Position numbers and translations under genes: made by a program. This document shows, piece after piece, positions 1,084 to 22,563 of a stretch of 64,000 nucleotides of DNA. Each line of letters starts with the position of its first letter. Within the stretch, counting starts at the first letter, position 1. The notes beneath the pieces were generated by a model that saw only the letters and a list, made by a program, of their open reading frames with translations, did not search any database and was not told the DNA's origin. The DNA comes from a virus. The stretch lies in the IMG/VR virus record IMGVR_UViG_3300036402_000303, positions 1 through 64,000 of that record. One strand, given 5' to 3'.

Positions 1084-1902
1084 TTATAGGACGGCCACGT
1101 CGTAGCGGTCGGTGACACGGCCTACGATGCCGAAGCAGCAGGTAAGGCGAAGACCGCGACCATCGGCGTGCTGTGCGGCGGCTTCACGGAGGACTCGCTG
1201 CGGCAGGCCGGATGCGTCGAGGTGTATCCAGGGCCGGTCGCCCTCCTTGCTTGCTTCGGGGACTCGCTCCTCACAAGATAGATCCCATGGCGCGAAGCCG
1301 GCGATGGTCACGGTCTCCCGCTGCGCGCAGGTCTTCTTCACCCAGTCATTGCTTCGCCCGGTCGGGTAGACGCTGTCGCGCACCTTCGGCACCACGCCTT
1401 CCAGGCTGTCGACCTCGAAGCTTTCGCTGAACTGGACGTCGGTCCCGGCGATGATCTTCTTCAGTTCGGCCTTCCGCTGGAACAGCGGCACTTTCCGGAG
1501 ATCGCGCCCGTTCAGATAGAGCAGATCGAAGGCGACCAGAACGATGCTGGTCGACTTGCCCTTGAGCTTGTTCTGCAGCACCGCGTAGTCCTTAATACCG
1601 TCGGCGGCCGGAACTACGACCTCGCCATCGATGACGGCGGAGCCTGCCTTGATGTGCCAGGCGTCGTGGGCGACTTTCTTGAAGCGATGTGTCCAGTCGT
1701 GACCGCGCCGGGAGAATATCTGCAGCTCTTCGCTGGCAAGGTGGACCTGGACCCGGTAGCCGTGGAATTTGATTTCGTGAATCCAGCGGGACCCGGACGG
1801 CACCCTGTCGATCGCGGATGCCACGGCCGGCTCGATGAAGCCCGGCAGCGGCACCTTGATGCTTGATTTCGGCAGATTTCCTACGCTGGAACGCCCCGAC
1901 AA
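1084..1902 (-). pseudogene. Degenerate LigD-type ATP-dependent DNA ligase fragment
   Basis: Residues ~30-215 match the adenylation domain of LigD-type ATP-dependent ligases. The motif I lysine sits in HEIKFHGYR, motif III is close to VAFDLLYLNGRDLR, and a late motif reads LEGVVPKVRDS followed by TGRSNDWVKK. Between the phrase FEVDS and LEGVV about ten residues that the family normally has are missing. After TIAGFA the sequence no longer resembles the OB-fold domain and runs into unrelated residues to the stop. The product would therefore lack the nucleic-acid-clamping domain, and the gene is probably a decaying remnant. Ku or the rest of a repair operon is not present here. Alternatively it could be a translated but inactive protein. 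Confidence 0.6.
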
Positions 1903-2002
1903 ACTCCACGCAACAAGCGGCTCAAACTGGCAGAGATCAGTCTGTTCCGGAACCGGTAAATCCTTGCTCCGTTACTTCGGCACACCGAAAGAGGAGGAAC
2001 CG

Positions 2003-2196
2003 ATGGCAGTAGTAAAAAGACTAAGTCGGCGCGCGGACGCAAACAGGACCGGTCCCGCGTGGCGGGCAAGCAGGACTACGAAGTCCGGTACGAATCCAAG
2101 AAGACCGGGAAGTCAGCGAAGGCGGTGAAGAAAGCGATCAAGAAGGCTGGCAACGTCCGCAAGAGAGTGGAAAAGCGTCTAACCCGAAAGAAGTAG
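2003..2196 (+). pseudogene. DUF3606-like small protein, frameshifted at codon 2-4
   Basis: The frame from 2014 to the TAG at 2194 encodes a lysine-rich protein containing GRKQDRSRVAGKQDYEV and a helical KKAIKKAGN segment, typical of the ~60-aa DUF3606 proteins of Bradyrhizobiaceae. The ATG at 2003, preceded by a strong GAGGAGG site, is one base out of phase with this frame. One base appears to be missing between 2006 and 2013, and no usable start codon exists in the coding frame after its upstream TAA. As read, translation from 2003 would give an unrelated 41-residue peptide. It is either a real inactivation or a sequencing deletion. Confidence 0.6.
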
Positions 2197-2212
2197 GTTT
2201 GCGAGCCCGCCC

Positions 2213-2476
2213 TCATTGCGGCGGGCACTCGGGGCATGTGTCACCTATCGACTCTAGAACTTCCCGGACCTCCGCCTCGGCGACCTCTGGAGAGAGGCCC
2301 GGAGGCGGATCCTGCCGGGCGATATCGAAGGCGTGCTCCCGGGCGTGGGGGTCAGCGCGGTCCTGCATCCATCCGTGCTCTTCGCATTCACGGATGACGC
2401 CGGCCTCGTTGAGGACTGAGATGGCCCAGCCTCTGTGCGTGCGGATCGCTGTTCTTCTGTCTTTGGTCGTCGGCAT
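2213..2476 (-). CDS. Conserved hypothetical protein, 87 aa
   Basis: A small acidic protein beginning MPTTKDRRTA, with the phrases RECEEHGWMQDRADPHARE and ending in CPECPPQ. It resembles short hypothetical proteins of Bradyrhizobium and Rhodopseudomonas as I remember them; no domain or catalytic motif is recognised. The C-terminal CPEC pair could bind metal. It is convergent with the frameshifted DUF3606 gene and stands alone. Confidence 0.6.
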   Translation of the reverse strand: MPTTKDRRTAIRTHRGWAISVLNEAGVIRECEEHGWMQDRADPHAREHAFDIARQDPPPGLSPEVAEAEVREVLESIGDTCPECPPQ

Positions 2477-2672
2477 CGAATACTCCTGCTGAGACGGAAT
2501 CTTTCAACAGGCAGCTTGTTCCGCGCAACTTGAGCGATAATCGGACTGTTCGCAGCCGATGCCAGCTTGCTCCTATCGGACTGGTTGAACTTAGAATATC
2601 CCGCGTCGCGTTCTCGTGGACCCACTTGAACTTCTTGTCCCATCCGACTGACCACTTAGACTCGGCGCTCAG

Positions 2673-5558
2673 TCACGCAGCACTGGGAACGGGATAGACG
2701 TTCATTTTCACTCCGCTTCGGGCGTTTCCGCTCAATTCTATAACCTTCAGGGGTTTGACCAATCCTTCGGGAGTTGACACCGATCCGATGTTCATAAATT
2801 TCTCGACCAAGTGTCGAGCGAAAGCTCGACTTGCAGTCGTCACAACCAAGTTTTGGCGGGAACTGCCCTCCATGACTGTTGCTCGGAATACGTCAAGCAG
2901 TCCAACCCGGTTAAGATCGTCCAAATGTGTCACGGGCTCGTCAAGAAAAAACGTCCCGCCGAGGCTGCGCGCACGTGCCAGGAAAAGCGCGAGCGCTAAG
3001 TCCTGTCGCTGCCCCTGACTGAAATCCGTTCTAGGATCGAGTTGGGCTTCACCAGCTGTCGCTAACCAGTGGAGGAAGTTATCAGCCTGTCCCATCTCGA
3101 TTTCATCAAAAACTCGATTTGCATGCATGCGAGCAAAGAGCGGATTGACGACACAGCTCAGAGCCCGCACCTGCCTTCCACTGATCTCGGTATACGCCTC
3201 GTGAAAAGTCTTGGCTGCGCGCCGAGCAGCCGACAATCGCCTTCGGATGCTCGTGTGTCGCTTTTTCAACGGAGCGATATTTGCTTCAAGCTCAGATAGC
3301 TGCGTCTGCCTCACTTCGGTGGACCACGATTTGCGCGCCGCTGCGATATGAGTATCAATGATCGCAAGTTGAGCCGCTTCCGCCGCAAGTTCGGCCCGAA
3401 CTTCGTTCAAAGCGCTTGGTGTCCATTCGCGGTCGACGGCCGCCTGGGACCACAGCCTCCGCAACCCTTCAAGCTCTCCCGCTGCCGCCGCAATCCGCTC
3501 GCGCAAATTTCGCAAGTTAGATTGAGTCGAGATAAATTCGGCCCGTAGTCTATCGCGTTCTTTGATAGCAGCGCGTTCGTTGGCCGACGCCAAGGCAATA
3601 GTTCTCTCAATCGCCGCGCCACGTCCCTTGGTCAGCTCCGAAAGATGTACAGTGGCGTTCACCAGCGGGATGAAATCAGGGAGAGGCGAACCGACATTTT
3701 TCTCAAAAACCGTCGATGCAAATCGATCGACATTTCTGTAGAGATCAACGAATACCTGCGCCACTAGGAGCCGGTGTTCAAAATGGGTGAGCACGACCCG
3801 GGCGTCAGAACGTTCTATACTGACTCCGAGTTCGCGGTAGTTCTGCGCCCGAACTTGCACAGCCTGAGACACGGCGTTGAGTTCAAATCTCAAAGTTTCG
3901 ACGTCATTGCGGCGCGCCAAAGCGGACTGATGGGTCGCGCGAGCCTCGCGGGCCAAACGGGCTGCATCTGCAGCTGTCCTTTCGGCGATTTTTAGAATCG
4001 CGGGCGCTCCAGCGAGTGTTTGGCTAACCGCCTCTTTTAGATTCTGCAGCGAATTCCAATCATGCCCACATAGAGGACAATCCGACGCCGTTTCACCGTG
4101 CGAGTGCGATAGAAACTCTCGTCCCGCAGCTTGGAGACGAGAAATCGGGGCAGCCATCGAATCAAAGCGATTCCTTGCCTCGGTAGCCCTTGCGTTCGCT
4201 TGGTCAGCTACCCGCCGCAGCGCAGCCATGTTGTCTTCGGACTGCACAAACTTTTGCAACTCTGCCCATCGAGCGTTCAGAAGTTGCAAGCGTTCGCGTT
4301 CAGCTTGCGCTTGGCTGAAATTTGATAGGGCGGTCCTAATTTGCGAGAGTCGATATTGAATCTGATCCAACGTCCATGTGACTTCTGGGAGCGCTTGACG
4401 TAGCTGCCCAAAAGTGGCGTTAGACGGCAACGGAACAGCAGCACTCGCGTTGGCCAAAGTTTGTGATAGCCGCGCTATCAATGGGGGCAACACATCTCGA
4501 ACTTGCTGAAGACCGGGAAGCAGATTTTGAGCGGCCGTCCTTTCTTCTGTGTACCTCGCTACGGCAGCGGCAATCGATCGACCTGACTCCTCTATCTTAG
4601 AAAATTGCAAAGCGAGATTGACTTCTTCGTGACTCAATATTTTGAGTTGGGCCTCCACATCCAACCGATGGTTCCAATCACCAGCAACTCTGTCGAAGGA
4701 TGTCTGACGCTGCAGACGCGCTCGATCTTTTCGAGCGTGTTCAGCAGTTGCAGCCTCTATGCGCCGACCAAGATTTGAGGAACTAGCTCGAGATTGCTTT
4801 GGTTGCGACCCTAGTTGGCGCTCCGCATTCTCGATTTCTGCTAAGCTGGAGGTCACACGAGCTTGACCATCCGGAGAATTGGCGCGGGCAATTTCAAGCC
4901 GAAGCTGTGTTGCCGATTTTTCAAGACTTTGGATAGACGTTGCTATGCTGCGCTCAATACTTGTCAATTCGCTCCGATAGCGGTCGCAGCTTCGCTCGGC
5001 ATCCAATAGATGTCGGATGCCGAGCAAGTCCGCGAACACCTGGGTGCGGCGTTCAATGGTGCTGTCGTCCGTATCCACCAACGCCGAGAGCGCCTCCGCG
5101 GATAGAAACCGCGTTCCTCTAAGCCAGTTTTGGCGAAGGCTGATAGCTGTCTTGTGATGAGCGTCGGCAGCGGCAGCGGCAGGCGCTAAAATAGCCAATA
5201 GGTCCCCGATCCGCGCCGCCTTACCTTTCGGAATTTCTTGGAGCCAAGCACCGGATGCCGTACGAGTCAGCACCCGTTGGTCGGCACCGATACGCAGGTG
5301 GGCTCGCACCATCGGCTCGGCGTCATCGGCAGCGAACTTAGAGTGAAGAACATCTGCATCAAACGTCTGGCCTTCGCGAAGACGTTCTACCTGCGCAGTA
5401 AGAAGCCATTCTACAGCTTCGCACATGGTCGTCTTACCCGTACCGTTTGGGGCAAACACCACCGTAATCGGAGAGCTTAGGTCCAGATCGAGCGGTTCGC
5501 TTATTCCACGAAACGACTCAATGTGAAGTCTAGAGATTCTGATGCCGTCGTGCTTCAC
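2673..5558 (-). CDS. SMC/Rad50-like ABC ATPase of a three-gene cassette
   Basis: This 961-residue protein has the layout of SMC/Rad50/RecN-type ABC ATPases. It has an N-terminal Walker A (APNGTGKTT, ~36-44), long charged helical arms predicted to be coiled coil, a central zinc-hook-like CPLC at ~494-497, a C-terminal ABC signature region (FSQGQRQD, ~846-853) and Walker B with switch residues (TFFLDEPVTHLDD, ~868-880). Such proteins act at DNA ends or on nucleoprotein complexes and are the sensor-motor in many anti-phage systems. Its start overlaps the stop of the upstream gene by 4 nt, so translation is probably coupled. It is the third gene of the operon, with the ~200-aa and nitrilase-fold proteins. 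I infer an ABC-3C-like conflict system; the exact subtype cannot be fixed from sequence alone. Confidence 0.8.
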   Translation of the reverse strand: MKHDGIRISRLHIESFRGISEPLDLDLSSPITVVFAPNGTGKTTMCEAVEWLLTAQVERLREGQTFDADVLHSKFAADDAEPMVRAHLRIGADQRVLTRTASGAWLQEIPKGKAARIGDLLAILAPAAAAADAHHKTAISLRQNWLRGTRFLSAEALSALVDTDDSTIERRTQVFADLLGIRHLLDAERSCDRYRSELTSIERSIATSIQSLEKSATQLRLEIARANSPDGQARVTSSLAEIENAERQLGSQPKQSRASSSNLGRRIEAATAEHARKDRARLQRQTSFDRVAGDWNHRLDVEAQLKILSHEEVNLALQFSKIEESGRSIAAAVARYTEERTAAQNLLPGLQQVRDVLPPLIARLSQTLANASAAVPLPSNATFGQLRQALPEVTWTLDQIQYRLSQIRTALSNFSQAQAERERLQLLNARWAELQKFVQSEDNMAALRRVADQANARATEARNRFDSMAAPISRLQAAGREFLSHSHGETASDCPLCGHDWNSLQNLKEAVSQTLAGAPAILKIAERTAADAARLAREARATHQSALARRNDVETLRFELNAVSQAVQVRAQNYRELGVSIERSDARVVLTHFEHRLLVAQVFVDLYRNVDRFASTVFEKNVGSPLPDFIPLVNATVHLSELTKGRGAAIERTIALASANERAAIKERDRLRAEFISTQSNLRNLRERIAAAAGELEGLRRLWSQAAVDREWTPSALNEVRAELAAEAAQLAIIDTHIAAARKSWSTEVRQTQLSELEANIAPLKKRHTSIRRRLSAARRAAKTFHEAYTEISGRQVRALSCVVNPLFARMHANRVFDEIEMGQADNFLHWLATAGEAQLDPRTDFSQGQRQDLALALFLARARSLGGTFFLDEPVTHLDDLNRVGLLDVFRATVMEGSSRQNLVVTTASRAFARHLVEKFMNIGSVSTPEGLVKPLKVIELSGNARSGVKMNVYPVPSAA

Positions 5559-6160
5559 AGATCTTCTCCGCCGTCTTGCCGGGCGAGCGTGGCCGGGTTT
5601 ACACCCTCCAATTCACGCCATAATCTTTCGGCCTCTTTGTCGAGTCGAGGCCAATAGACATCTGCCGAACCTGCGGTATCCGCAACTGGTAAACCGAGCA
5701 CTGTAACGTCTGCGATCCTAGCCCAAGTGGCATTGGAAGCAACGGGCTGATTGAGATCCTCCGAAGGGCTTGGCCAGATTATGTGTTTGCGGCAGACTCG
5801 AAATGAGAGTTCCAATTCCCTGATCATCACCTGCAAATCTTTCGTCGGCGCGGTCGGTAACGCGAGAATGAGATACCCATCGACCACGCGACCATTCACT
5901 TGCGCTTCTTTTACTCCAAGCAACTCGTCGAAATAGCTTTGGCCTTGCTCTGCCGCCAACTGCAATTCTTCTGCACCAATTTTCTGGATCGGCCAAAGTA
6001 ACAAGCTAGCATAATCACTCGCCCAGAGCGTCGTTCCACGCGGAGGATCAATAGCAAGATTCTTGAACGTGGGAATTAACTCCATTCGAAATCCAACCTT
6101 TTCGCAAAGATCGCTGATCTCTAGCTGAGCGTTCTCAAGAAGATCTGCATTGATGCTCAT
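5555..6160 (-). CDS. Middle component (~200 aa) of the ATPase/nitrilase cassette
   Basis: A 201-residue cytoplasmic protein without signal peptide. Its central part reads VDGYLILALP followed by a helix IRELELSFRVCRKHIIWP. The combination of a conserved hydrophobic strand and a C-R-K-h-h-h-W motif is reminiscent of the small middle components (MC) of ABC three-component systems; this assignment is from memory of the family and needs a profile search. It lies 3 nt downstream of the nitrilase-fold gene and overlaps the ATPase start by 4 nt, which fits a stoichiometric bridge between the two. No catalytic motif is visible. Confidence 0.65.
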   Translation of the reverse strand: MSINADLLENAQLEISDLCEKVGFRMELIPTFKNLAIDPPRGTTLWASDYASLLLWPIQKIGAEELQLAAEQGQSYFDELLGVKEAQVNGRVVDGYLILALPTAPTKDLQVMIRELELSFRVCRKHIIWPSPSEDLNQPVASNATWARIADVTVLGLPVADTAGSADVYWPRLDKEAERLWRELEGVNPATLARQDGGEDL

Positions 6161-6163
6161 CGT

Positions 6164-8284
6164 TCAGGCCGCCTTCGGATTGAAGTATCGTCTAAGACGC
6201 AAGATCAATTCTTTCAGATCTTCCTCGTCTCCGGGCTTGCTCACGTCGTAGTCGGCATAGACCGAATTCACCGCGTCCAGCCTTACGCAAGCGACGGAGC
6301 GCTCGAATTGCGACGCCGTGATATCACTTTTGATTGGTGCAAGACTTCCTCCGACATGCAGGTCATCAGCTCCAGGCGGAGGCTCGCCAAAATTCGCTCT
6401 GCGGCCGCTCTTGACCAATCCTTCAGGCGGCGCGCCGTGCGGGCCATCGCAGAGAACAATGAGCGGTGGGTGATATCCAACGATTGTCTTCCAAGCAACA
6501 ATCTCTGACAAGATCTGACGTTGCGTCCTTTCCGCATCCTGCCAAACAAGGATTGTCAGCTCATCGGCAAACCGCAATTGCCCCTGAATGTCATCATCGC
6601 TTTGCCAGACAATTCCCTTCGACGTTGAGATCGTTGCAAGTGCAAACATCGCATTTCGAAATGAATGCTCGACAGCCGGTACATGCAAGCGGTCCGGGTC
6701 ATGAATTGTTCCCGAGCTAACACCGTGCAAGAGTGTTCGTAGAAGCCGTTCTGACGTCGGCCGATCTCCCGCATCCAAGTGTACGGCCAATCGCTTAAGG
6801 CCTTGGCCCACCCGAGGTGCCCAAGTAACCAGCGGCGGATGTCGATGCAAGAATCGGGCGACTTCGGTTTGGCAGATCGGGGGTGGCTCAGTTACGGGCG
6901 CTGATATGCCGGCGTTAACGAGAGAACAACACAGGCTCGCGTGCCAAACAAAGAGGTTGCCCGTTGGGACATAAGGACTCCACGCTATCGGCCCTCCAAC
7001 GATCTGAGGCCGCGTGTCTCGAACGACGGCCCCCCTAACGTTTTGGCTCTCGATAGCCCGACCAGCCGGCAAATTCTTCTGATTGCGTGGTATTTCTGTG
7101 AAGCGAGCATAGACGCCAGACAGGGAACGCCATTTGTCGGTAGCCTCGTCCGCCAGGTAACAACTATTGGCGATGTTCGCTAGCGCTACCACAGTGGGTC
7201 TGCCGATCGTTGCTACATTGAGCCAATAATTAATCGCCGCATTCCAGTTGTCGTTCTGACGTACTTGATAGGTCGAGCCCGCGACAAGCACGGGACGAAC
7301 GGTGCCTCTACTCGGCACGAGAGACTGTTCGATACGCCTTAGCGCTGTCCCCTCCCCGTCGGCATAAGATTGAACAAGATCAGCACAAATTAGGGGGAAA
7401 ATGTCCAGATCGTTGAAGGCAATACGCAAGAGCATCTGACCACATGCCAGCGCAAGCTGCGCCTCTGCAGTCTGCTCAAGATGGTTTTTCAGGTGTGCAA
7501 TGCACATTGTCTCGGCAGCGAACCCGTGGATCCAACACCACCCGCCGTTAACCCGTAGGACATTGGAGATTGGCTGCTCGTCTTGATCCCATCCCAAATG
7601 GCGCGAGGTTACTCCGGCTGTTGCAGCCCATTGCAGCACGTCCTGGCCCCTAGTCGCACCAAATCCCGCGATAAGAACGAGCGGTTGAGGGCTAGCCCGC
7701 ACCGCCGCATCAATGGCGACCCAATCACCTGAGCCGAAGGCGTACTCGGGAGCAATAATCACCGCTGGAAGATGGCCCGGAGCCAAGTCGCGCAGCACGG
7801 GAGCACCGTGTCGAGCCCCCCCATTGAGTAGGTCGTTAATCACCGCGACCGTGGATGGCCTCGATGCGTCCGATCCAATCCACTCTAGAGGCGTTGGCTC
7901 GGTTTGAAGAATCACAAGATTGAGCCGGCCGTCTGCTAATCTGACGTTTGCGTCAACTGTCAAACTGGCGATTTTTAGATGGGTATCGAATTCAATCACG
8001 GGAGGGGACACTATCAAATTGGTGGGACCAGAATGACTATAACCACCATAGCGGTGGTGCACGAGCACGTCACCAACAGGTTGTAGTGGAGGCGCATATA
8101 ATCGCTTTGTTGAAGGCGGCTTCCATTGCGAGCTTACCATTGACCACAAGGCTTTCAGCAATGTCAGCAATAGCGATGTGACCGCTGACGTCGTAGTCGG
8201 CCCGGTGCGGCAGCAATGCGTCCATCTTTGTTTCCCCCGAGTAGATGCAGTGCACGGGAGGAGCAACTTCAGGCGGTCATCCAT
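6164..8284 (-). CDS. Nitrilase-fold protein, putative effector of ATPase cassette (5' end probably frameshifted)
   Basis: In the continuous frame the carbon-nitrogen hydrolase signature is visible in order: Glu in IIAPEYAF (~180), Lys in IAHLKNHLE (~266) and Cys in FPLICADL (~300). A further ~400 residues of unassigned sequence form the C-terminus. Nitrilase-superfamily enzymes cleave non-peptide C-N bonds; here the likely role is an effector that consumes a small molecule or modifies a partner. The first ~60 residues look unnatural. Another frame, starting at an ATG at 8225 behind a GGGGGAA site, encodes a natural-looking N-terminus (DYDVSGHIAIADIAESLVV), then runs into a stop. The two frames would join near 8095-8115, so a single-base shift (mutation or sequencing error) is likely and the ancestral start is 8225. 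The rest of the cassette lies immediately downstream. Confidence 0.7.
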   Translation of the reverse strand: MDDRLKLLLPCTASTRGKQRWTHCCRTGPTTTSAVTSLLLTLLKALWSMVSSQWKPPSTKRLYAPPLQPVGDVLVHHRYGGYSHSGPTNLIVSPPVIEFDTHLKIASLTVDANVRLADGRLNLVILQTEPTPLEWIGSDASRPSTVAVINDLLNGGARHGAPVLRDLAPGHLPAVIIAPEYAFGSGDWVAIDAAVRASPQPLVLIAGFGATRGQDVLQWAATAGVTSRHLGWDQDEQPISNVLRVNGGWCWIHGFAAETMCIAHLKNHLEQTAEAQLALACGQMLLRIAFNDLDIFPLICADLVQSYADGEGTALRRIEQSLVPSRGTVRPVLVAGSTYQVRQNDNWNAAINYWLNVATIGRPTVVALANIANSCYLADEATDKWRSLSGVYARFTEIPRNQKNLPAGRAIESQNVRGAVVRDTRPQIVGGPIAWSPYVPTGNLFVWHASLCCSLVNAGISAPVTEPPPICQTEVARFLHRHPPLVTWAPRVGQGLKRLAVHLDAGDRPTSERLLRTLLHGVSSGTIHDPDRLHVPAVEHSFRNAMFALATISTSKGIVWQSDDDIQGQLRFADELTILVWQDAERTQRQILSEIVAWKTIVGYHPPLIVLCDGPHGAPPEGLVKSGRRANFGEPPPGADDLHVGGSLAPIKSDITASQFERSVACVRLDAVNSVYADYDVSKPGDEEDLKELILRLRRYFNPKAA

Positions 8285-8829: not shown

Positions 8830-9022
8830 ATGGAGAAAAAACCTGTCCTACATCTACGACCCCTGTAACGATCGACCTGTTCTCGCTGTTCGCCTTAAGA
8901 CCCACGAAATGGCTCGCATCGACGAAGCCCGTCACCGCATGAAGCTCTCGCGAAGCGACCTAGCTCGCCGTGCGTTGAGCAGCCTTTTAGATAAGCTTCA
9001 GGCTGAAGCTGCCGCGAAGTGA
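8830..9022 (+). pseudogene. Small ribbon-helix-helix-like protein, frameshifted in an A6 run
   Basis: The ATG at 8830 opens with ATG GAG and then six A residues. With five A residues it would read MEKNLSYIYDPC and continue as RPVLAVRLKTHEMARIDEARHRMKLSRSDLARRAL to the TGA at 9020, a plausible 62-residue DNA-binding protein of the ribbon-helix-helix type. With six, translation stops after 12 codons. The part from the internal ATG at 8909 (37 codons) remains open. It lies directly upstream of the replication gene, where a small copy-control regulator would be expected. Homopolymer slippage or a sequencing error are both plausible; transcriptional slippage could also restore the frame. Confidence 0.5.
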
Positions 9023-9099
9023 TCCGTCATCACGAGAAAAAGCCCCGAAAGCGCGTCGACGCTCCGGGGCCGATAACCTATTTCGTCACAGGAAACACC

Positions 9100-10104
9100 A
9101 TGCCACAACACAACCGCAAAAACAAATCCAGTAACGACAATAACCGCCCGTCTCCAATCATCACCTCACCGGAAGGTGTGAAGATTCAGATTACCGCTGG
9201 CCGCAAGCTTCAAGCGATCCGCTCCTTTGCCCGTGATCCTGAAATTACAGACGCCCAATTCAGGTCGATAGTCTGCATCGTTGACCGGCTGAATGAGGGG
9301 CGTGGCGAAGAGAGGCTCTGGGGAAGTGCCTATCCGAACTTCGAAACGCTGGCAGCAGATATCGCGAAGGATGTGCGCTCTGCAAAGCGAATCGTCAAAG
9401 AACTGGAAACCGGCCAGCGTGAAACCCGTTCCGACGGAGTAAAGAAGCTGAGCCCCGGCAAGGTCGTTCTGAGCGTCCAGCGATCAAAGGATCAGGACGG
9501 AAAGGACAGTGTTAATGAGTACCGCTTGAAGGAATGGGGTGCGTTCGTTGTCGCAGAACAATTCGAGGAGGGTGCGGTGACCGCACCCATACAGTCCGGG
9601 GAGGGTGCAGTGACCTGTAAGGAAGGGTGCGGTGACCTGTCAGGGAGGGTGCGGTCACCTGTCGGGAAGGGTGCGGTGACCGCACCCGACTCTACCCACT
9701 TACTCTCCTCAGAAACTCCACCCACAAACTCACCTCACATGGCGCCCGCCTGCGTCGAGCGTGAGCCGGTTGCTTCGATTGTTGATGAAGTCCGACCCAC
9801 CCAACCGGGAAATGACAACGATCCAGAATGGCCGTCAGCGGACGATGCCGTCGCCAAGTTCGCATTCCACTACCCCAAGGCAGTAGATCCTTCGAAGATA
9901 CGCAATCTCTTAGAAGAGATCAGGAAAGACGGCCGGACCAAGTTTAAGGATATCCTGCGAGGTGCCAGCCACTACAAGAAAGAGACGGTTGAGACCAAAC
10001 TCGAGTTCATCAAGTGGCCGGAGAACTTCTTGAAGGGCCGGCACTGGGAAGGGTATCAGCGAGACCGCACCAAAACGAGGTTCAAGAAGGTCGTGGCGAT
10101 CTAA
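9100..10104 (+). CDS. Replication initiator-like helix-turn-helix protein
   Basis: I start at 9100, where AGGA precedes the ATG at good spacing; upstream in-frame starts lack this. The 334-residue protein has a winged-helix-like segment (NFETLAADIAKDVRSAKRIVKELE) of the type found in phage and plasmid replication proteins. Its C-terminal domain (FAFHYPKAV..., FKDILRGASHYKK, WPENFLKGRHWEGYQ) is typical of rhizobial replication proteins. Between them lies a low-complexity linker encoded by the iteron array described separately. The likely role is binding those repeats and recruiting replication machinery for the integrated element. It follows the small RHH-like gene and precedes a terminator-like hairpin. 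Confidence 0.65.
   Translation: MPQHNRKNKSSNDNNRPSPIITSPEGVKIQITAGRKLQAIRSFARDPEITDAQFRSIVCIVDRLNEGRGEERLWGSAYPNFETLAADIAKDVRSAKRIVKELETGQRETRSDGVKKLSPGKVVLSVQRSKDQDGKDSVNEYRLKEWGAFVVAEQFEEGAVTAPIQSGEGAVTCKEGCGDLSGRVRSPVGKGAVTAPDSTHLLSSETPPTNSPHMAPACVEREPVASIVDEVRPTQPGNDNDPEWPSADDAVAKFAFHYPKAVDPSKIRNLLEEIRKDGRTKFKDILRGASHYKKETVETKLEFIKWPENFLKGRHWEGYQRDRTKTRFKKVVAI
9570..9681 (+). repeat. Iteron array (five 13-bp repeats) inside the replication gene
   Basis: Five near-identical copies of GGGTGCGGTGACC begin at 9570, 9603, 9625, 9647 and 9669; the second has one change (GCAG) and the fourth has GGTCACC. Spacings are 33, 22, 22 and 22 bp, so all sit on the same helical face. Because 22 is not a multiple of 3 the copies are read in different codon phases (EGAVT, GCGDL, GRVRS), which shows the constraint is on DNA, not protein. 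Copies 1 and 5 extend into a dyad with 9-bp arms around a central G. This is the pattern of replication iterons and resembles the lambda origin lying within gene O. Confidence 0.75.
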
Positions 10105-10571: not shown

Positions 10572-10734
10572 CCGTTTTGGGGGTCGGAATTTTTGGCCGA
10601 TATCGCATCCGCCAGCCCGATCATCAGCATTTGCCGGGCGGTCCTGCCACCTCTCGCCACACCGCAACCCACCCCTAACGTCCGCACGTCATCGCGCGGG
10701 CAAACCTTGACCCATGTCTCAACTAGGAAATTTC

Positions 10735-10932
10735 ATGCCGCAAGAACTAAACGTAGCAAACATGTGGACCGAACCGACTCGGACTGTCGGCACGGTCTTT
10801 CCTCGATCGATGGTCGATGCGATCGAAGTTCGAGCGAGAGCCGAACTAATTTCTCGATCGTCTTGGATGCGCCGAGTCATCCTCGCCGAGCTTTCGAAGC
10901 GGTTCTCGGTGACTCAGGAACAGAATCGATGA
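10735..10932 (+). CDS. Small ribbon-helix-helix-like protein
   Basis: I choose the ATG at 10735 because AGGAA lies 6 nt upstream; an ATG at 10714 has no such site. The 65-residue product has a short strand (VGTVFPRSMVDAIEVRAR) followed by two helices (ISRSSWMRRVILAELSKRF), which fits a ribbon-helix-helix DNA-binding fold. It is translationally coupled to the next gene by an ATGA overlap. It could be a copy-control or operon regulator. Confidence 0.55.
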   Translation: MPQELNVANMWTEPTRTVGTVFPRSMVDAIEVRARAELISRSSWMRRVILAELSKRFSVTQEQNR

Positions 10933-11189: not shown

Positions 11190-11576
11190 ATGGCCGATCC
11201 TCTCGAAACCTTGATCCTGACAGAAGCCCGCAAGCAGGGCTGTCAGCCGAATACAGACGCAATGCGACAGGCGACCATTCATCTTGCCGGGGCTACCCTA
11301 AACGACCAAGGCCTGATCCATTTACCGAACGTCGGCAGCATCGCTCCGGCCGATTTCATTCGCTCGCTGCGAAGCCAGGCGCCGGAGTCGTTTGCAGCCC
11401 TCAGCGACAAACCGCCGGTCACTAAATCGAGCGGCAATCTGACGGCCGACATGAAGGCCGAAGTTGCTGCAAACCGCCGCCAGCGGGCGTTACCCAGCGA
11501 CTGGTGGGCCGTTCGCTCGAATACCACCGGAACCACGGCCCAGCACATGGCCGAACGCGAAAGGAATTGGAAGTGA
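11190..11576 (+). CDS. Hypothetical protein, 128 aa
   Basis: Starts at the base after the previous TAA and ends overlapping the next start (GTGA). It is soluble, with an N-terminal part about small helices (LETLILTEARKQG) and a C-terminal segment rich in Ala, Arg and Trp (ALPSDWWAVRSNTTGTTAQHMAERERNW). It looks like a small phage or plasmid structural/regulatory protein, but no family is recognised. It is the third gene of a four-gene coupled operon. Confidence 0.55.
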   Translation: MADPLETLILTEARKQGCQPNTDAMRQATIHLAGATLNDQGLIHLPNVGSIAPADFIRSLRSQAPESFAALSDKPPVTKSSGNLTADMKAEVAANRRQRALPSDWWAVRSNTTGTTAQHMAERERNWK

Positions 11577-12136: not shown

Positions 12137-12880
12137 TCATGCCCGACTGGATCGTTTGTTAGTACCACCAGCTACTGCGTTTTGTTTCGGTAGTCGTGAC
12201 AAGACGCGCTTCACCTGTACTGCTTGCCACTGACCACGGCCGCGTGGCGTCTCAACGCCCTGATCGCTGAGGCGCGAGGCAATGCCGCTAAGTGACGTTA
12301 CGCCGGCAGCCTGTAGCTCTAGGATGGCAAGTGCAGCATTTGCGGCCTTGGCGTCTGCGCGCTTGGCGATGGTCTCCCTGCCCTTCGCAATCGCATCAAG
12401 AGTTAAAGTGACTGGCTTACCGTCAGCGTGTGTCCGCCGACCGCCAAGCTTCACGCCCCGGGCTTTAGCGGCCTGTAAAGCGGCCGTTGTGCGGGCAGAA
12501 GCCATGCGCCGCTCTTCTTCCGCAACCATTGCCATGATGCCGATGGTCAGCCGGTTGGCGTTGGGCATGTCGGCAGCCACGAAATCAACGCCGTCCTCTT
12601 CCAATCCGAGAAGGAAATGCGCATTGCGGGAAAGCCGGTCCAACTTTGCGATGACCAGCTTCGCACCAAACATCCGGCATGCAGCACGGGCCGCCTCGAG
12701 CTGCGGCCGGTCGGATCGTTTGCCGCTCTCGACTTCCGTGAATTCTTTGACGAGCTTCCAGTCGCCTCCATTCAAATAAGCGGCGACAGCCGCTCGTTGA
12801 GCTTCAAGACCGAGGCCACTTTTGCCCTGCTTGTCTGTCGAGACGCGATAGTACGCGACCCATTTTCCAGTTGCTTTCAT
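12137..12880 (-). CDS. Serine recombinase (resolvase/invertase family)
   Basis: The 247-residue protein begins with the catalytic domain: AYYRVSTDKQ with nucleophile Ser14, the loop GLEAQRAAV, and the arginine-containing LDRLSRNA. It then shows the E-helix (GIMAMVAEEERRMASARTTAAL) and a helix-turn-helix region ending LSDQGVETPRGRGQWQAVQVKRVL. The size is that of small resolvases/invertases rather than large serine integrases. It would cut and rejoin DNA at short dyad sites, such as the one found just upstream. In this element it may resolve dimers or invert or mobilise a segment. Confidence 0.85.
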   Translation of the reverse strand: MKATGKWVAYYRVSTDKQGKSGLGLEAQRAAVAAYLNGGDWKLVKEFTEVESGKRSDRPQLEAARAACRMFGAKLVIAKLDRLSRNAHFLLGLEEDGVDFVAADMPNANRLTIGIMAMVAEEERRMASARTTAALQAAKARGVKLGGRRTHADGKPVTLTLDAIAKGRETIAKRADAKAANAALAILELQAAGVTSLSGIASRLSDQGVETPRGRGQWQAVQVKRVLSRLPKQNAVAGGTNKRSSRA

Positions 12881-13275: not shown

Positions 13276-16200
13276 ATGTCCGAAAACCTATCCGTCATGA
13301 CCAAGTTCACAGCTCATGACGAAGCTTCGCCAGTCGTCAGGAAACTGCTGTCGAACATCCAGCGGCTTGAACGCGGTGTGAAGAACTTCAACAGCGCGTT
13401 TGGTGCATCCGCTGACGCCGGAACTGCCGCGTTCGGCAATTGGTCGAAATTGACCGACCGATTGAACCAATCGTTAAAGGCTTCTGTCCGTGGCGCAAAC
13501 GATTATGGCCGGGAATGGCAGCGGAATCATGAAACCCGTCTGCGTGGCGAACAGCGCTTGCACGCCTCAATCCTTCGCTTGGATCAAATTGCCTTTAATC
13601 GCCGCATGTCGCAGCATGCCGCCATCACCAGGCAGCAATCAAGTCTTACACATCGTGAACCCGCTCCATCGCGCATGACCGGTAGTAGCCGGTACGGCAT
13701 CTCGCCAGTGAGGACCGCAATCGTCGGTGGCATCGCCTCTGCGGGCATCGCGTCGGTCTTCAAGCGCCGAATGGAAATCGACACCGCTGAAGTGAAGGCC
13801 AGAATTTTCGGAGAGCTTTCGAAAGACGATATCAAGCAGTCCCGTCGCTGGATCGATAAAGACTCGATCAAGTACGGAGTTTCGTCTGGCAAGATCGTTG
13901 ATGCCTTTACGGAATCGCTCAAGGCCGGATTCAGCCGGGATGCGGCGCAACAGATCGCGCAAGGCGCTCTGAAGGCCCAGAGCGCGGTCGAACTCGATAT
14001 CGGCCAGCTGATTAAGCTGAGCGGCAAAACGGCAACTATTTTCGGCGGCGACGTTAAAAACACGGATCCAGCCCGCGTCTTGAAATTGATGAATGCCATT
14101 GCCGTGGCGTCGGCTGAGACCGCCGCGGACCCGGATGAGGTCATTGAAGGCTTCAAGAAAGGCAACGCAGCGCTGGCGATGTCGAAAATGTCGGAAGCCG
14201 ACCTTGCGGCGATTCTGTCGGTCGGCATCTCGGGCGGCATCCAACCAAGCAAGGCGGGAAATGCCGTCTCCAATCTGGTCTCGACTATTGTCGGCGGCAA
14301 GAGCGCTCGCGGGCAGAAGGCCCAAGACTTGAACGAAGCCGCCCGCATGCTCGGTTACGGTGGCAAGAACAATCTTTCAGATCGGATGACGAACGATCCG
14401 ACCAACGTCCTGGTCGAGATGTTCCAGCGATTGAACGCCTTGTCGGAGCAGAACAAAACCAAGGTTGCTCGCAGGCTCGGTGGGTCAGAATGGGACGATG
14501 AGATTTTGATGCTGGCTAAGCCGGTCGATCAGATCGTTGCGACGCTCAGGGCCGTGAAGTCCAAAGTAGATATGATGGACAAGTCATCGGCTGAGAAGCT
14601 GAATTCGCTTCAAGGACGGTGGTCTAGCATCTCGGCTGCGTTCGGTCTCGGATTGGAGAAATTTGGAGCAGGCTTCGAAGATCCATTTATCGAGATCTCC
14701 GACTGGTTCCGATCAAAAATCGATAAGCTTGATTTCGATTCCGTCAGGAGGAAATCAAAGCAACTCGTCGACGGATTTAAGGCGGCTTTTGGTATTGCAG
14801 ATATCAAGCAGTCCCTCGACGGCATGCTGAGCAAAATTCAATCCACCAACGTCACGAAGGTTGTTGATTTTGCGGCCGGGGTCGCGTCAGGCATCAAATC
14901 GGTCGCTGACAGTTTCGCAACTGCGATCAGATCCATCGCCAGCGTCATGGGCAAGGATGGTAATGACACCGCAGTCCTCGGCAAACTCACCGGACAGATC
15001 ATCGGCTTGTCCGTAGCGTTAGGATTGCTGGCGCCTGTCCTGACCGTGCTCGCGGGCTTGATTGGCATTGTTCGTGGTGCAGCACTGTTGCTTGGAGTCG
15101 GCACTGCCGCCCGCATTGGTGCACGTACTGCACTTGGAGTGGCCGGTGGACCCGCCGCTGGGATGGCGTTGCTTGGCGACGGTAAGCCCGGCAATAGCGC
15201 ATCCGACATCACCGGGCTTCAGGACGCGATCAAAGCGGAGAGGGAGAGGAAGCGTCTGCTTAAGGAAGCTGGTAAGGGCGATGGCAGAGCCGACCCGCTC
15301 TTCCATCCGACCAGCCTCCGCAGCGACATCGGCGACAAGTTCGATAAGATGGGCGCGAAGCTTGAGCGCATCGCCTTCCAAGGCGGCGGGATGACCGACC
15401 TCAGTTCGAGAAATCGGACCGGTGGCGGCATCCAGAACGCCATAATGGGCGGCGGATCAAGCAGCGGCGGCACCGGTGGTATGACAAAATTGCTCAGCGG
15501 CGTCGGAACTCCGAGCGCTTTGTTCAATGGCGTGCCGGGTAGCGCTTTGCCAAACTTCGGCATAGGCCGCAGCGGAACCATCATCAGGCGAGGCGGAGTT
15601 GGTGGCATCGTCAACCAGGACAGTATCCCGTCGTTCACTGGCGGTGGTGGATCGGTGGCCGACAATGTCGGGGCCGGCTTGTCGGGTAACGCGTTCCTTG
15701 CAGCTCGCCGAGGAAAGTTCGCCGAGGAGATGAAGAACGATCCAAGCCTGAGGATGCATCTCGCTGCCATGCAGCAGACCGAGGGTATCAGCAAAGGCGG
15801 AACTATTGAGAGCCTGATGAACCGCGCGGACATGCAAGGGAAGTCCCTCCGGCAGATGCTTGGCTACAGTGCTGACGGACAGATCAACCCGAGGAGCTTC
15901 TACGGTCCAATCCGTCGAGGTGAACTCGGTCCGGCAATCCGCAGGCTGCAGAGCAACCCGAAGGAGTTCGCGAAGTACGACGGCTACACCCAGCGCGCTC
16001 TTGCGGGCAATCACGCCATTGGCGGTTACACTGACCAGGGCCTGCCCACTGATCCGAACGGATCGAAGAGAACCGGCGGTCGGTTCCCGTTCATGAAGAT
16101 CAGTCCGAAGGACGGTAACGAGTTCACTGATTGGGTTGGACCGGGATCGCAATGGGGTAAGGGCCGTGCCGGTGCGATGAACTATCGCAAGTTCATCGAA

Positions 16201-16446
16201 AACGGCATCGCCGGGTCCGGCCCGGTGACCAGCAACGTGCCTTCAGCTGCTGAGAACATTCAGAACGTCCCGATGCTGAAGCCGAATAACGACGCAGGTC
16301 TCGGCGGCAGGGGCGGTCGTGGCGGCTCGACGATCAATATCAACGGTGGAAGCCATGACGCGGAGTCGCTTGCAACGCTGGTCCAGCGTCGCGTCGACGA
16401 CTCGATGCAGTGGCGAACCCACGACAGCGAGTCTGAATATACATGA
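13276..16446 (+). CDS. Orphan phage tail tape-measure protein with C-terminal hydrolase-like domain
   Basis: The 1056-residue protein has the layout of a TP901-type tape-measure protein. A helical N-terminus is followed by a conserved core (KYGVSSGKIVDAFTESLKAGF, GNAVSNLVSTIVGGKSARGQ, LSEQNKTKVARRLGG), hydrophobic segments at ~575-640 (GLSVALGLLAPVLTVLAGLIG) and a glycine-rich linker. Residues ~800-980 (AARRGKFAEEMKNDPSLRMHLAAMQQTEG, ESLMNRADMQGKSLRQML) resemble a murein-hydrolase-like domain seen in alphaproteobacterial phage proteins. Such proteins set tail length and help penetrate the cell wall. No other tail genes surround it; its neighbours are replication and recombination genes. It is therefore either a leftover of a deleted prophage or part of a satellite-like element. 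Confidence 0.75.
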   Translation: MSENLSVMTKFTAHDEASPVVRKLLSNIQRLERGVKNFNSAFGASADAGTAAFGNWSKLTDRLNQSLKASVRGANDYGREWQRNHETRLRGEQRLHASILRLDQIAFNRRMSQHAAITRQQSSLTHREPAPSRMTGSSRYGISPVRTAIVGGIASAGIASVFKRRMEIDTAEVKARIFGELSKDDIKQSRRWIDKDSIKYGVSSGKIVDAFTESLKAGFSRDAAQQIAQGALKAQSAVELDIGQLIKLSGKTATIFGGDVKNTDPARVLKLMNAIAVASAETAADPDEVIEGFKKGNAALAMSKMSEADLAAILSVGISGGIQPSKAGNAVSNLVSTIVGGKSARGQKAQDLNEAARMLGYGGKNNLSDRMTNDPTNVLVEMFQRLNALSEQNKTKVARRLGGSEWDDEILMLAKPVDQIVATLRAVKSKVDMMDKSSAEKLNSLQGRWSSISAAFGLGLEKFGAGFEDPFIEISDWFRSKIDKLDFDSVRRKSKQLVDGFKAAFGIADIKQSLDGMLSKIQSTNVTKVVDFAAGVASGIKSVADSFATAIRSIASVMGKDGNDTAVLGKLTGQIIGLSVALGLLAPVLTVLAGLIGIVRGAALLLGVGTAARIGARTALGVAGGPAAGMALLGDGKPGNSASDITGLQDAIKAERERKRLLKEAGKGDGRADPLFHPTSLRSDIGDKFDKMGAKLERIAFQGGGMTDLSSRNRTGGGIQNAIMGGGSSSGGTGGMTKLLSGVGTPSALFNGVPGSALPNFGIGRSGTIIRRGGVGGIVNQDSIPSFTGGGGSVADNVGAGLSGNAFLAARRGKFAEEMKNDPSLRMHLAAMQQTEGISKGGTIESLMNRADMQGKSLRQMLGYSADGQINPRSFYGPIRRGELGPAIRRLQSNPKEFAKYDGYTQRALAGNHAIGGYTDQGLPTDPNGSKRTGGRFPFMKISPKDGNEFTDWVGPGSQWGKGRAGAMNYRKFIENGIAGSGPVTSNVPSAAENIQNVPMLKPNNDAGLGGRGGRGGSTININGGSHDAESLATLVQRRVDDSMQWRTHDSESEYT

Positions 16447-19169: not shown

Positions 19170-20852
19170 TCATTGATGGGCAGTAAAGCCGCTGAGGAGT
19201 TCCGGGTCTGACGGATTGGCGACCTTGGGTATGGCGTCGATCACGCGGGTCATAGCCATCACAGACACGTCGCCATAGTCATCGCCAGATGTTCGCGCCG
19301 CATGACCTTGGATGGCATCAACGACTCGCGGATCAAACCCAAGGTCGCGGCTGATCGTCTTGAAGCGATGCCGCCATGCATGGTTAGGCTGGACTCGTTC
19401 GTCGGTGACAACCGTCCGTACCAGAGCTACGACTTGAGTGTAGCAGCCCTCTGCAAACAGCGGCCCGTCATCTGACTCATCAACGAACTCCAATAGGCCT
19501 AATTCGATCAGGTGTTGGTGGATCGGCACGAGTCGAAATATCCCGGTTTTGATCCCGCCAGCCAGCGGGTTCAGGTCGAAAATTTGACGTCCGGACTCTT
19601 CACGGATGTCCTCCTTGCGAAGCTGCAAGGCCTCGCTGATCCGGCAGCCAGTGTAAGCGGCAATAAGAGGAGACCACCGCTTGGTTGCCGCCGTTCTGGG
19701 ATACTCTTTCGGTTTTCGCACGTAAGACAAGCACGCGCGGAAAACAGCTGCCGATTCCTGATCCGTGAACCCCTTTTTCCGGGTTACAATTTTCTTCGGC
19801 GCTTTGATTTTAACTGCATCAGCCGGATTCTTGGTTAGCTTTCGATTGTCCACGGCCCAGCCGAGCACCGACTTAATCCCCGGCAGATCGCCGTCTTTGA
19901 AGGTCTTTGCGGTCACCACCTTGAGACGGGCATCCTTGTATTCAAGCATGTTTGCCTCTGTCAGGCGGCTTGCATCATCGTGATCAAGATGTTTAACGAG
20001 CCTGTCGATGGCGCCCTTGTAAGTGTCATATGTGCTTTGGGTACGTCCGGTAGCCTTGGCTTCCTTCCACCACAGGTCAAGCAATCCCGTGATCGTCTGC
20101 TTTCGTTTCGCCGCTGCGACGGTTTCGACCAGCGGGAAGCGAATGGCCTTTGGGTCAGGGCTGTAGTCGCCCTCTGCATTGCGTTTCAGTTGCCAACCAG
20201 CATCTAACGAGGCCGTCCCGACGAGGCGAAGGAGGCGTTGCCGATCTTCCGGGACAAGGTGAATGCGATGCCGAATTAATACGTAGTCCGTCAGCAAGCC
20301 GAACCGCTCTTGGAGGACGTTGTACTGCCCGGCAGGGAAGGCGTTGATCGCCTCCGTCAGGTTTCCAGTCCCGAATAGCTCTTTCGCGAGGGCCGCCTCA
20401 TTCACCTTAAGAGTGGCGGGTGGAGTACTCGGGATGCGTCCCTCAATCGCCGCTCTATGGAACGCTTTGTGGTAAGCCCAGACATCCGGCTCTCCGGGAT
20501 CATTCCCATGAACTTCCTGATAGAGCCGGTATGCCTCGCCGCTCAGTGCCACCATATCCTTGTGCGACAAGCTGACAGGACCAGCGGCGGTCATCTCAAA
20601 TAGCCGCTGCAGGTGCTCAAGGGCGTCCACATGACGCGCCTTGGCAATGCGTTCGTCGCTTTCCCCAAGGGAGAATGCAACGTCGGTCCCGATGGTCACG
20701 ACCTTGATGTAGGCCGGTCCAAGCTGGCTCGACAGGTGCAATAGAACTTTCATGCCGCGTAGCCGGTCAACAACTTTGGCCGGGACGCGACAGCGGAATT
20801 GGGGGACGCTGGATCGGGAACGCTTATCCATCAAGTACTTTAAGGAAACCAT
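19170..20852 (-). CDS. int: Tyrosine integrase of the left element
   Basis: The C-terminal catalytic domain carries the tyrosine-recombinase residues: Arg in TGCRISEAL, the H-x-x-R box HAWRHRFKT, His in QGHAAR and Tyr in DDYGD. The N-terminal part resembles the long SAM-like arm-binding regions of rhizobial integrases (about 560 residues in total). An in-frame ATG at 20879 is also possible; I prefer 20852. The start is 73 nt from a tRNA-Thr 3' fragment, which is the expected attachment site for this enzyme. It probably integrated the element on its left side. Confidence 0.85.
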   Translation of the reverse strand: MVSLKYLMDKRSRSSVPQFRCRVPAKVVDRLRGMKVLLHLSSQLGPAYIKVVTIGTDVAFSLGESDERIAKARHVDALEHLQRLFEMTAAGPVSLSHKDMVALSGEAYRLYQEVHGNDPGEPDVWAYHKAFHRAAIEGRIPSTPPATLKVNEAALAKELFGTGNLTEAINAFPAGQYNVLQERFGLLTDYVLIRHRIHLVPEDRQRLLRLVGTASLDAGWQLKRNAEGDYSPDPKAIRFPLVETVAAAKRKQTITGLLDLWWKEAKATGRTQSTYDTYKGAIDRLVKHLDHDDASRLTEANMLEYKDARLKVVTAKTFKDGDLPGIKSVLGWAVDNRKLTKNPADAVKIKAPKKIVTRKKGFTDQESAAVFRACLSYVRKPKEYPRTAATKRWSPLIAAYTGCRISEALQLRKEDIREESGRQIFDLNPLAGGIKTGIFRLVPIHQHLIELGLLEFVDESDDGPLFAEGCYTQVVALVRTVVTDERVQPNHAWRHRFKTISRDLGFDPRVVDAIQGHAARTSGDDYGDVSVMAMTRVIDAIPKVANPSDPELLSGFTAHQ

Positions 20853-20924
20853 GGTCTGTGTGGCACCATTGTGTGGCACTCAGGACCGAATTTCCAATAA
20901 AATCAACATCTCCAATGGGATGAG

Positions 20925-20977
20925 TGGTGCTGCCAGACAGGATTGAACTGTCGACCTCTCCATTACCAATGGAGTGG
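20925..20977 (-). other. tRNA-Thr(GGT) 3' fragment, attachment site
   Basis: On the minus strand this reads as the anticodon arm (CTCCA-TTGGTAA-TGGAG, anticodon GGT), variable loop, T-arm (GACAG-TTCAATC-CTGTC) and acceptor end (TGGCAGC-ACCA). The D-arm and 5' acceptor strand are absent: the match ends at 20977. This is the classic footprint of integration at a tRNA 3' end. Two integrase genes lie on either side within 75 nt, so it is the junction of two tandem elements. The intact tRNA should lie to the right, beyond the right-hand element. Confidence 0.8.
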
Positions 20978-20993
20978 GCGATTTGACATAAAC

Positions 20994-22325
20994 TCATGCG
21001 GGACGGGCCTTTCTTGGCTTTGCTACACCGTCGCGTGTCAGGTTCGTGCCCATATCATCCAGCTCATTCACCAGCTGGCGCCGGTATTCCGGGGCGTCGT
21101 GCGAATAGCCCATGACCGACCGGATATCGAGCCAGCCGCCTTGCTCCATTGCCGCGCGGGGGTCTCGCCGCAGCATCTTCTGAGCCAGCATGTGCCTGAA
21201 CCAGTGCTGCGTCACCTTGCCGATCAGGGCGGCGTCGGCGCCGGCCTGGTCCCGCGCTTCGGCAGCGGCCTTACGCTGGCCCGCCTTCATCAGCCGCGTA
21301 TAGGTGGCCTCGCCAGCGTCGATAATGGCCGCAGCGGCCCGGCGCTTTGCTGCATTGAAGCCGGTCTTGTTCTGGCCACCGCCTGCCTTGCCATTGTCGG
21401 CGTAGGGCTGGCGGCGGTAAGTCAAGAATAGCGGTGCCTCCCGGTCATGCAGCTTGCCACGCCATTTCAGATAATCCTTCAGCACCGCCACCGCGGTCGG
21501 ATCCAGCGCCGCGGAAACGTCCTCGCCGTTCTTCGTGGCGGGGAATGTGATCTGCTCCCGGCCCTTGGCAAGGATCAGGTCGCATACTCTTGCGGCATAG
21601 ATGATCGAAGACACCCTGGCACCGGTGGCCCGCTCCACAGCGAGCTGCGCCCTGATGCTGATGTGGCAGGCATCAAACAGCGCCCTCACCAAGTCCGGCC
21701 GCAGATCCGTCACCCGCCGGCGGACCCGCCGGTTCGGATTGCGGGCAGCCTGATCGCGTTCGAACTTCGGCACCTCAGCAAGGCCGTGGTTTCGCTGAGA
21801 ATAGTGCAGAAAGGACAGTAAGCCGCCCAGGAAGCGTTCGCGGGCCGACGCTGTGTTGCCCGTCATCCGGCCTGGGAACGCGCTGCCGTCAGGCTTTGCG
21901 CCGCCGTCGATCCATTGCTTCCACTCGTCGGGCCGCAGCTCGTTGAACCGTCGAGCGCCGAACTTCTTGACCGTCTCCTTGACGATATTGACCGAGGTAG
22001 CGCCAAGCGGCCGGCGCCTGGGCATTGCCAGGTAGGCCGCGGCGGCTATCGCAACTGGATCACCTCGCCCAGCTTTGCCGGTGACCTTCGCTTTGACGTC
22101 CTCGATGTAGGAATCGAGCGCTGTTTCTGCTTCGGTCTGGCTGGTGGCCGCAACGGCCAGGCCAAGACTTTGTCGGACGCGGACTGAACGGCCTGCGACC
22201 CGTAGGGTACCGACTGCGTGCCAGTTACCGTCTCGCTCTTTGAGCGCGATCCCGCGAGCACGCCGCCCGGGGCGCTTTCCCTTTCGATCGCCGCCTCGAG
22301 ATTTTGGAACGCAGTCGCCGACCAT
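20994..22325 (-). CDS. int: Tyrosine integrase of the prophage
   Basis: The catalytic residues are visible: Arg in ATGARVSSI, HWFRHMLAQ, and the final GYSHDAPEYRR. The N-terminus (ALKERDGNWHAVGTLRVAGRSVRVRQSLGL) fits an AP2-like arm-binding domain. The frame is open to 22403, but I place the start at about 22325 because upstream residues overlap the excisionase-like gene in another frame and look unnatural. The stop is 17 nt from the tRNA-Thr fragment. It is the last gene of a minus-strand early operon running from 26490. Confidence 0.8.
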   Translation of the reverse strand: MVGDCVPKSRGGDRKGKRPGRRARGIALKERDGNWHAVGTLRVAGRSVRVRQSLGLAVAATSQTEAETALDSYIEDVKAKVTGKAGRGDPVAIAAAAYLAMPRRRPLGATSVNIVKETVKKFGARRFNELRPDEWKQWIDGGAKPDGSAFPGRMTGNTASARERFLGGLLSFLHYSQRNHGLAEVPKFERDQAARNPNRRVRRRVTDLRPDLVRALFDACHISIRAQLAVERATGARVSSIIYAARVCDLILAKGREQITFPATKNGEDVSAALDPTAVAVLKDYLKWRGKLHDREAPLFLTYRRQPYADNGKAGGGQNKTGFNAAKRRAAAAIIDAGEATYTRLMKAGQRKAAAEARDQAGADAALIGKVTQHWFRHMLAQKMLRRDPRAAMEQGGWLDIRSVMGYSHDAPEYRRQLVNELDDMGTNLTRDGVAKPRKARPA

Positions 22326-22474
22326 ATCCGTTTCCGTCCGCGCATCGTGTGAAACTGAAACCGCCGATCGTCGATGGCGCGCAGCAAGTCTGCCGCCAGC
22401 CATCCGTCAAGGGTGCGCTTGCCGATTCTAAGATCGGCCGCGACCTCGTCCATTGTGCGGTCGCCTGCAGCCAT
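22046..22474 (-). CDS. Excisionase-like helix-turn-helix protein
   Basis: The first ~70 residues (TMDEVAADLRIGKRTLDGWLAADLL, then RRFQFHTMRGRKRIWSATAFQNLEAAI) form a winged-helix MerR/Xis-like DNA-binding domain with a terminal contact strand, as in phage excisionases. The remaining residues overlap the integrase gene in another frame and may be only partly meaningful. Its ATG shares one base with the stop of the 29-codon gene upstream (TGATG), and it lies just before int, as is typical for xis. Confidence 0.6.
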   Translation of the reverse strand: MAAGDRTMDEVAADLRIGKRTLDGWLAADLLRAIDDRRFQFHTMRGRKRIWSATAFQNLEAAIERESAPGGVLAGSRSKSETVTGTQSVPYGSQAVQSASDKVLAWPLRPPARPKQKQRSIPTSRTSKRRSPAKLGEVIQLR

Positions 22475-22563
22475 CAATCAAGCCTTATCGCGGTGATGTG
22501 GCCCGGAGGCCCGCTCGTCTTGAAACCGGGCGCGTCGGGGTACTGCTCGGGAAGGCGGCTCAT
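22474..22563 (-). CDS. 29-aa small protein, translationally coupled
   Basis: MSRLPEQYPDAPGFKTSGPP followed by GHITAIRLD. The ATG overlaps the upstream stop (ATGA) and the TGA overlaps the downstream ATG by one base, so it sits with no spare base between two early genes. No known motif. The exact fit makes it likely to be translated. Confidence 0.5.
   Translation of the reverse strand: MSRLPEQYPDAPGFKTSGPPGHITAIRLD

Follow-up and report, generated by a model that had tools for sequence, protein, structure and literature searches.

A Candidate Lambda-O-Type Replication Origin within the Initiator Gene of a Small Integrative Element

Organization of the Locus

The DNA analyzed here, which we refer to as the window, comprises positions 1 to 64,000 of the 76,726-bp record IMGVR_UViG_3300036402_000303. 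Between about 8.8 kb and about 19 kb it contains a block of genes encoding a small ribbon-helix-helix (RHH) protein, a replication initiator (Rep), a second RHH-like protein (RHH2), a 128-aa protein, a resolvase and a tape-measure-like protein (Table 1). Most genes of this block recur in related elements, those of Nitrobacter and of three genomes (G197, G125 and G294), and in the window, Nitrobacter and G197 rep is immediately preceded by the RHH gene. The RHH gene of the window probably begins with a CTG start codon, which aligns with a TTG in Nitrobacter.

To the left of the block, at 1084-8284 on the minus strand, is ABC-3C/Lamassu-like cargo (a 961-aa SMC-like protein matching LmuB, a 201-aa protein and a 706-aa CTD3 protein) that is probably a defense system and is adjoined by a gene for an ATP-dependent DNA ligase. 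The cargo neighboring the G197 element is also defense-like, a type I restriction system. To the right, two tandem tyrosine recombinases, two unknown genes and an HNH protein (19170-25875, minus strand) lie between the element and a separate prophage at about 28-64 kb, which has a GpA terminase, a lambda-type portal and capsid E. As this prophage brings along replication genes of the Toprim and D5 types, it is unlikely to be served by rep.

Table 1. Features of the rep locus and of the element that carries it (window coordinates).
Feature	Position	Strand	Description	Basis
RHH (CopG-like) protein	8843..9022	+	Small protein, upstream of rep	RHH_1 E=0.0014; homologues with 58-70% identity at the corresponding position
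Hairpin and T-run	9037..9071	-	Terminator-like; between RHH gene and rep	Position of lambda oop terminator
rep	9100..10104	+	334-aa replication initiator: HTH_36-type N-domain, array-encoded linker, C-terminal domain	phrog_270, HTH_36, homologues
Iteron 1	9570..9588 (13-mer 9570-9582)	+	Extended to dyad GGGTGCGGTGACCGCACCC	
Iteron 2	9603..9615	+	GGGTGCAGTGACC, 1 mismatch	
Iteron 3	9625..9637	+		
Iteron 4	9647..9659	+	GGGTGCGGTCACC, 1 mismatch	
Iteron 5	9669..9687 (13-mer 9669-9681)	+	Dyad extension like iteron 1	
G-poor, C-rich flank	9688..9749	+	Directly right of the array	Position of lambda AT-rich tract
Second RHH-like protein	10714..10932	+	Small protein	Kept across element family
128-aa protein	11190..11576	+	Conserved	Kept across element family
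Serine recombinase	12137..12880	-	Resolvase/invertase	PF00239 E=1.2e-28
Tape-measure-like protein	13276..16446	+	Orphan phage protein, 1056 aa; marker of element family	PF10145 E=1e-17

The Initiator Protein

Profile searches with the window Rep returned phrog_270 (replication initiation protein; E=1e-5) and Pfam HTH_36 (E=5.8e-5 over aa 74-103, just below the gathering score). Its homologues scored better: the Nitrobacter protein matched phrog_391 ("replication initiation O-like", E=5e-12) and phrog_1032 (E=6e-13), and the G197 initiator matched phrog_270 with E=6e-11. The phrog_270 match of Rep itself and the phrog_391 match of its Nitrobacter homologue place the protein in phage replication-initiator families. 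Scans of viral and genome contigs for close relatives with the single protein found none, searches with small alignments found the Nitrobacter protein only, and the phage collection held no Rep homologue. Weak class-level matches (L037-L039) were set aside as not initiator-like. A search of PDB sequences gave chance matches only, and a structure prediction from two sequences (pLDDT 35) was too poor to use.

An Iteron Array in rep

An earlier note on this DNA had described five 13-bp repeats within rep, and we found them as claimed: GGGTGCGGTGACC occurs at 9570, 9603, 9625, 9647 and 9669, with a spacing of 33/22/22/22 bp. There is no further copy elsewhere in the 76,726-bp record, and the pattern read backwards gave 0 matches. 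The array occupies nt 471-588 of the 1005 nt of rep (aa 157-196), behind the helix-turn-helix, and so lies between the DNA-binding and C-terminal domains, as in a lambda-O-type initiator. Copies 1 and 5 do extend to 19-bp dyads with 9-bp arms (GGGTGCGGT-G-ACCGCACCC); copies 2 to 4 do not form complete dyads. As to the proposal that the repeats lie on one helical face, it holds for neighboring copies, as 22 bp corresponds to 2.1 helical turns and adjacent copies thus face nearly the same way, but is only approximate for the array as a whole.

The copies are in codon phases 2, 2, 0, 1 and 2, and all three reading frames are therefore used; the note had stated that the phases differ. They translate as EGAVTA, EGAVTC, GCGDL, RVRSPV and KGAVTA. 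Because the repeat is read as different peptides, the protein cannot be what keeps the copies alike. The note's view that the repeat is conserved as DNA was likewise borne out when we compared rep with recoded versions of itself: in 150 synonymous resamplings the best 13-mer cluster reached three copies, and that once, versus five in the real gene. The period-22 self-similarity of rep exceeded that of all 200 codon shuffles. Clusters of more than two copies of a 13-mer were present in only 1 of 64 one-kb chunks of the window, the one holding the array. The iterons within this initiator gene are thus real and constrained at the level of the DNA.

Arrays in Related Initiators

We compared rep with three direct homologues, found by tblastn and profile searches, and with three more initiators taken from syntenic elements. 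The direct homologues are those of the Bradyrhizobium elkanii plasmid pUSDA76 (L005), Nitrobacter winogradskyi (L013/L026) and G197, a genome of the same family. The B. elkanii and G197 initiators carry an array of AAACGGTGAAC with a spacing of 14/30/21/21/22 in the same place as the window array, and the Nitrobacter initiator carries AAACCGGTCAC with a spacing of 35/21/21/21/22, again in the same place in the gene. In all four genes a wider gap near the start of the array is followed by two-turn spacing, and in the three homologues the outermost copies, judged by eye, continue into dyads that are either complete or imperfect.

The initiators of the syntenic elements G294, G125 and G026 are too diverged to be found with the window Rep as a query, and were reached by using the tape-measure-like protein as a lead. 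In every one of them the corresponding region of the gene holds an array, with units that we read from the printed sequences: GCGACAAAyTGTCGG in G125 and GAGCACACCyCTGCTCAG in G294, both with a 22-bp period, and CGGAAAGAATCTTCCG in G026, with a 23-bp period. G026 also has a second O-like initiator fragment directly upstream of its rep (L050, 11264-11767, minus strand), perhaps a decayed or duplicated initiator. Among distant HTH_36-like genes, in-gene repeats at about 22-25 bp were found with spacings of 25/23/24 (L033), 38/22/23/22 (L034), 36/33/22/23 (L035) and 23/22/23 (L036, suggestive only, its copy number being not above its small null), and clusters of dyads were observed inside two others (L018 and L020).

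All seven initiators, that of the window included, have retained an array with a period of 21-23 bp directly behind the DNA-binding domain, and neither the repeat sequence nor the linker amino acids are conserved among them, apart from the repeat shared by the B. elkanii and G197 pair. This is the comparison for which the earlier note had called, and its outcome favors the DNA: the linker sequence was lost and the 21-23 bp array kept, not the reverse. For five of the seven initiators, enrichment of the period over codon shuffles reached p<=0.005. The other two, G197 (p 0.6) and B. elkanii (p 0.03), have a 21-bp period that keeps the reading frame and repeats amino acids as well, which leaves the test with little power.

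That in-frame repetition, together with the low complexity and poor conservation of the linker, is what would be expected if the repeats were a protein-level or neutral feature, a disordered linker grown by slippage whose DNA has no role. We regard this as the least probable of the alternatives considered here, since the one window 13-mer translates to GAVT, GCGDL or RVRSP depending on the frame, the synonymous null is rejected, and arrays with the same period and unrelated sequence recur at the same place.

The Protein That Would Bind the Repeats

The RHH gene offers another candidate for the function of the array. CopG/omega-like RHH proteins bind iterated sites, and the position of the gene directly upstream of rep in three of the loci would fit a site for partition or control to which this neighbor, and not Rep, binds. 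The distribution of the repeats, however, does not follow the RHH protein. The window and G197 RHH proteins are 70% identical with a conserved N-terminal strand, yet their iterons are completely different and their Rep N-domains are only 31% identical. Conversely, B. elkanii and G197 share the same repeat and have Rep N-domains that are 66% identical with the same recognition-helix region, while their RHH proteins are unrelated. The repeat thus tracks the DNA-binding domain of Rep, which argues for Rep as the binder, although this is a correlation from few genes. On these mismatches we rejected the RHH protein as the repeat binder, and a partition or control site for it seems very improbable.

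Flanks of the Array

Folding indicated a strong hairpin just upstream of the initiator gene at all seven family loci and, in lambda, at the matching position, that of the oop terminator. The quality of the T-rich tail that follows it on the minus strand varies among loci, the hairpin of the window was not listed by a stricter terminator scan, and we recognized no promoter on the minus strand that could drive an oop-like RNA. The hairpin suggests termination of an antisense transcript. To the right of the window array the DNA has an AT content of 43%, compared with 68% in lambda; the least stable segments are in other places, and no AT-rich unwinding region was found beside the iterons in the window. 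The array of the window, like those of the three homologues closest to it, is directly followed by a G-poor, C/T/A-rich, strand-asymmetric stretch that is not AT-rich.

These flanks bear on the possibility that the array serves only to control rep transcription, as an operator or roadblock within the gene to which the initiator or a repressor binds, with the true origin elsewhere. Rep dimers of iteron plasmids bind dyad operators, and the first and last copies in the window are dyads; the terminator-like hairpin hints at regulated antisense transcription, and the missing AT-rich tract would also be in keeping with an operator. An origin is nevertheless the better fit to five or six copies with two-turn spacing that lie deep in the gene, at the place of the proven lambda origin. 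We consider an operator improbable, if less so than slippage or an RHH site.

A Proposed Origin Embedded in the Initiator Gene

We propose that the window array is an origin of the lambda-O type that lies inside the gene for its own initiator and is carried by a small integrative element, a reading to which we assign a probability of roughly 80%, with the origin function inferred from sequence. The earlier note had reached a similar view, and the homologue comparison, the initiator profiles and the layout of lambda O lend it support. In its favor, the repeats rotate through the three codon phases and exceed the synonymous nulls. Against it, there is no AT-rich tract beside the window array, no P-like loader was recognized among the downstream genes scanned, the inner copies are not full dyads, the HTH match is below the Pfam gathering score, and codon shuffles are weak or uninformative in G197 and B. 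elkanii.

Under the embedded-origin model the element would first excise. The winged-helix N-domain of Rep would then bind the iterons of its own gene and wrap them into an O-some-like complex, which would open the DNA next to the array, and the C-terminal domain would recruit the replicative helicase. Rep binding, unwinding, helicase recruitment and origin activity are all inferred.

The Carrier Element

The orphan tape-measure protein (950-1120 aa) is conserved in the G026, G125, G197, G294 and Nitrobacter elements. The same family occurs in true phages, including Bradyrhizobium phage contigs of about 120 kb, in which the tape measure is flanked by a tail chaperone and downstream tail genes; the integrative elements have neither. 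The boundaries of the element are clearest in G026, where 13,171 bp containing rep and the tape-measure gene lie between 22-bp repeats, one of them inside a tRNA-Met adjoining the integrase gene. This relative therefore combines a small integrative element, an integrase and its own replication module, as satellites do. Searches for att repeats or ends around the window element and those of G197, G294 and G125 found none. In G125 an integrase is located beside a tRNA-Lys, and the G197 and G294 elements adjoin a gene whose product we take to be ribosomal protein S18.

The element family possibly represents phage satellites. A more specific proposal, which we hold tentatively and at less than even odds, is that it is an undescribed phage-satellite-like family of Nitrobacteraceae with an O-type origin inside the initiator gene, whose orphan tape measure, homologous to those of the approximately 120-kb Bradyrhizobium phages, re-sizes or hijacks helper tails or hinders their assembly. 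The one hint of packaging in, or remodelling of, a helper particle is the tape-measure homologue that the elements have in common with these phages. Among the titles and abstracts listed in literature searches, none described a satellite that carries its own tape-measure gene.

Comparison with Known Systems

The closest families to Rep are the HTH_36, phrog_270 and phrog_391 phage initiators, and the distant members that we sampled likewise have in-gene repeats. The Rep subfamily differs from them in having an extra N-terminal motif, ITSPxGVxIQITAG, and in its location in a small integrative element.

The lambda origin, situated mid-way in gene O, consists of iterons and an AT-rich tract; an O dimer binds each iteron, which is a dyad of 18-19 bp, and the DNA-binding and P-binding domains of O are joined by a flexible linker (PMC7466680, PMC6022878). 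Lambda O and its lambdoid relatives share with rep the order of an N-terminal DNA-binding domain, an iteron-carrying linker and a C-terminal domain, and their four to six iterons are likewise in mid-gene, spaced 20-24 bp apart and falling in mixed codon phases (PMC7466680, PMC6022878). In our lambda O control the annotated iterons were at nt 349-433 of the 900-nt gene, with a spacing of 20/24/23 and mixed codon phases. A further likeness is the terminator-like hairpin that closely precedes the gene on the opposite strand. As lambda O shares this layout, that of the window is of a known kind. There are also differences: every lambda iteron is a hyphenated dyad, whereas in the window only copies 1 and 5 are; lambda has an AT-rich tract beside its iterons and the window does not; and the iteron sequences are unrelated. 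No DnaC- or lambda-P-like loader was recognized among the downstream genes scanned, including those for RHH2 and the 128-aa protein.

Iteron plasmids (mini-F RepE, pSC101 and RK2 types) have direct repeats with a period of ~22 bp bound by a winged-helix initiator, and dyad copies beside the directly repeated ones, but their iterons lie outside the rep gene, unlike those of the window, and the window protein has no Rep_3-type match. The repABC plasmids of Alphaproteobacteria do have the origin inside an initiator gene, repC; RepC, however, belongs to a different protein family, and no RepA/RepB partition genes were seen at the window locus.

Phage satellites (PICI/SaPI, PLE and P4-like) are small, have an integrase and a replication module of their own, often carry defense cargo, and occupy tRNA or housekeeping loci. 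The window element family resembles them in size, integrase, replication module, defense cargo and tRNA integration; it differs in that no capsid-redirection or packaging gene was recognized, and an orphan tape-measure gene is present instead.

An array within an initiator gene is therefore already known, and its carrier is the more unusual part: small integrative elements with an orphan tape measure and sometimes defense genes. The layout recurs with different repeat sequences across this little-known family of small integrated elements, which appears to combine an autonomous replication module with an orphan tape-measure gene. Among the related initiators the geometry of the array is kept while the repeat changes, and the change follows the DNA-binding domain, which makes the family a compact alphaproteobacterial test case for the co-evolution of initiator and origin.
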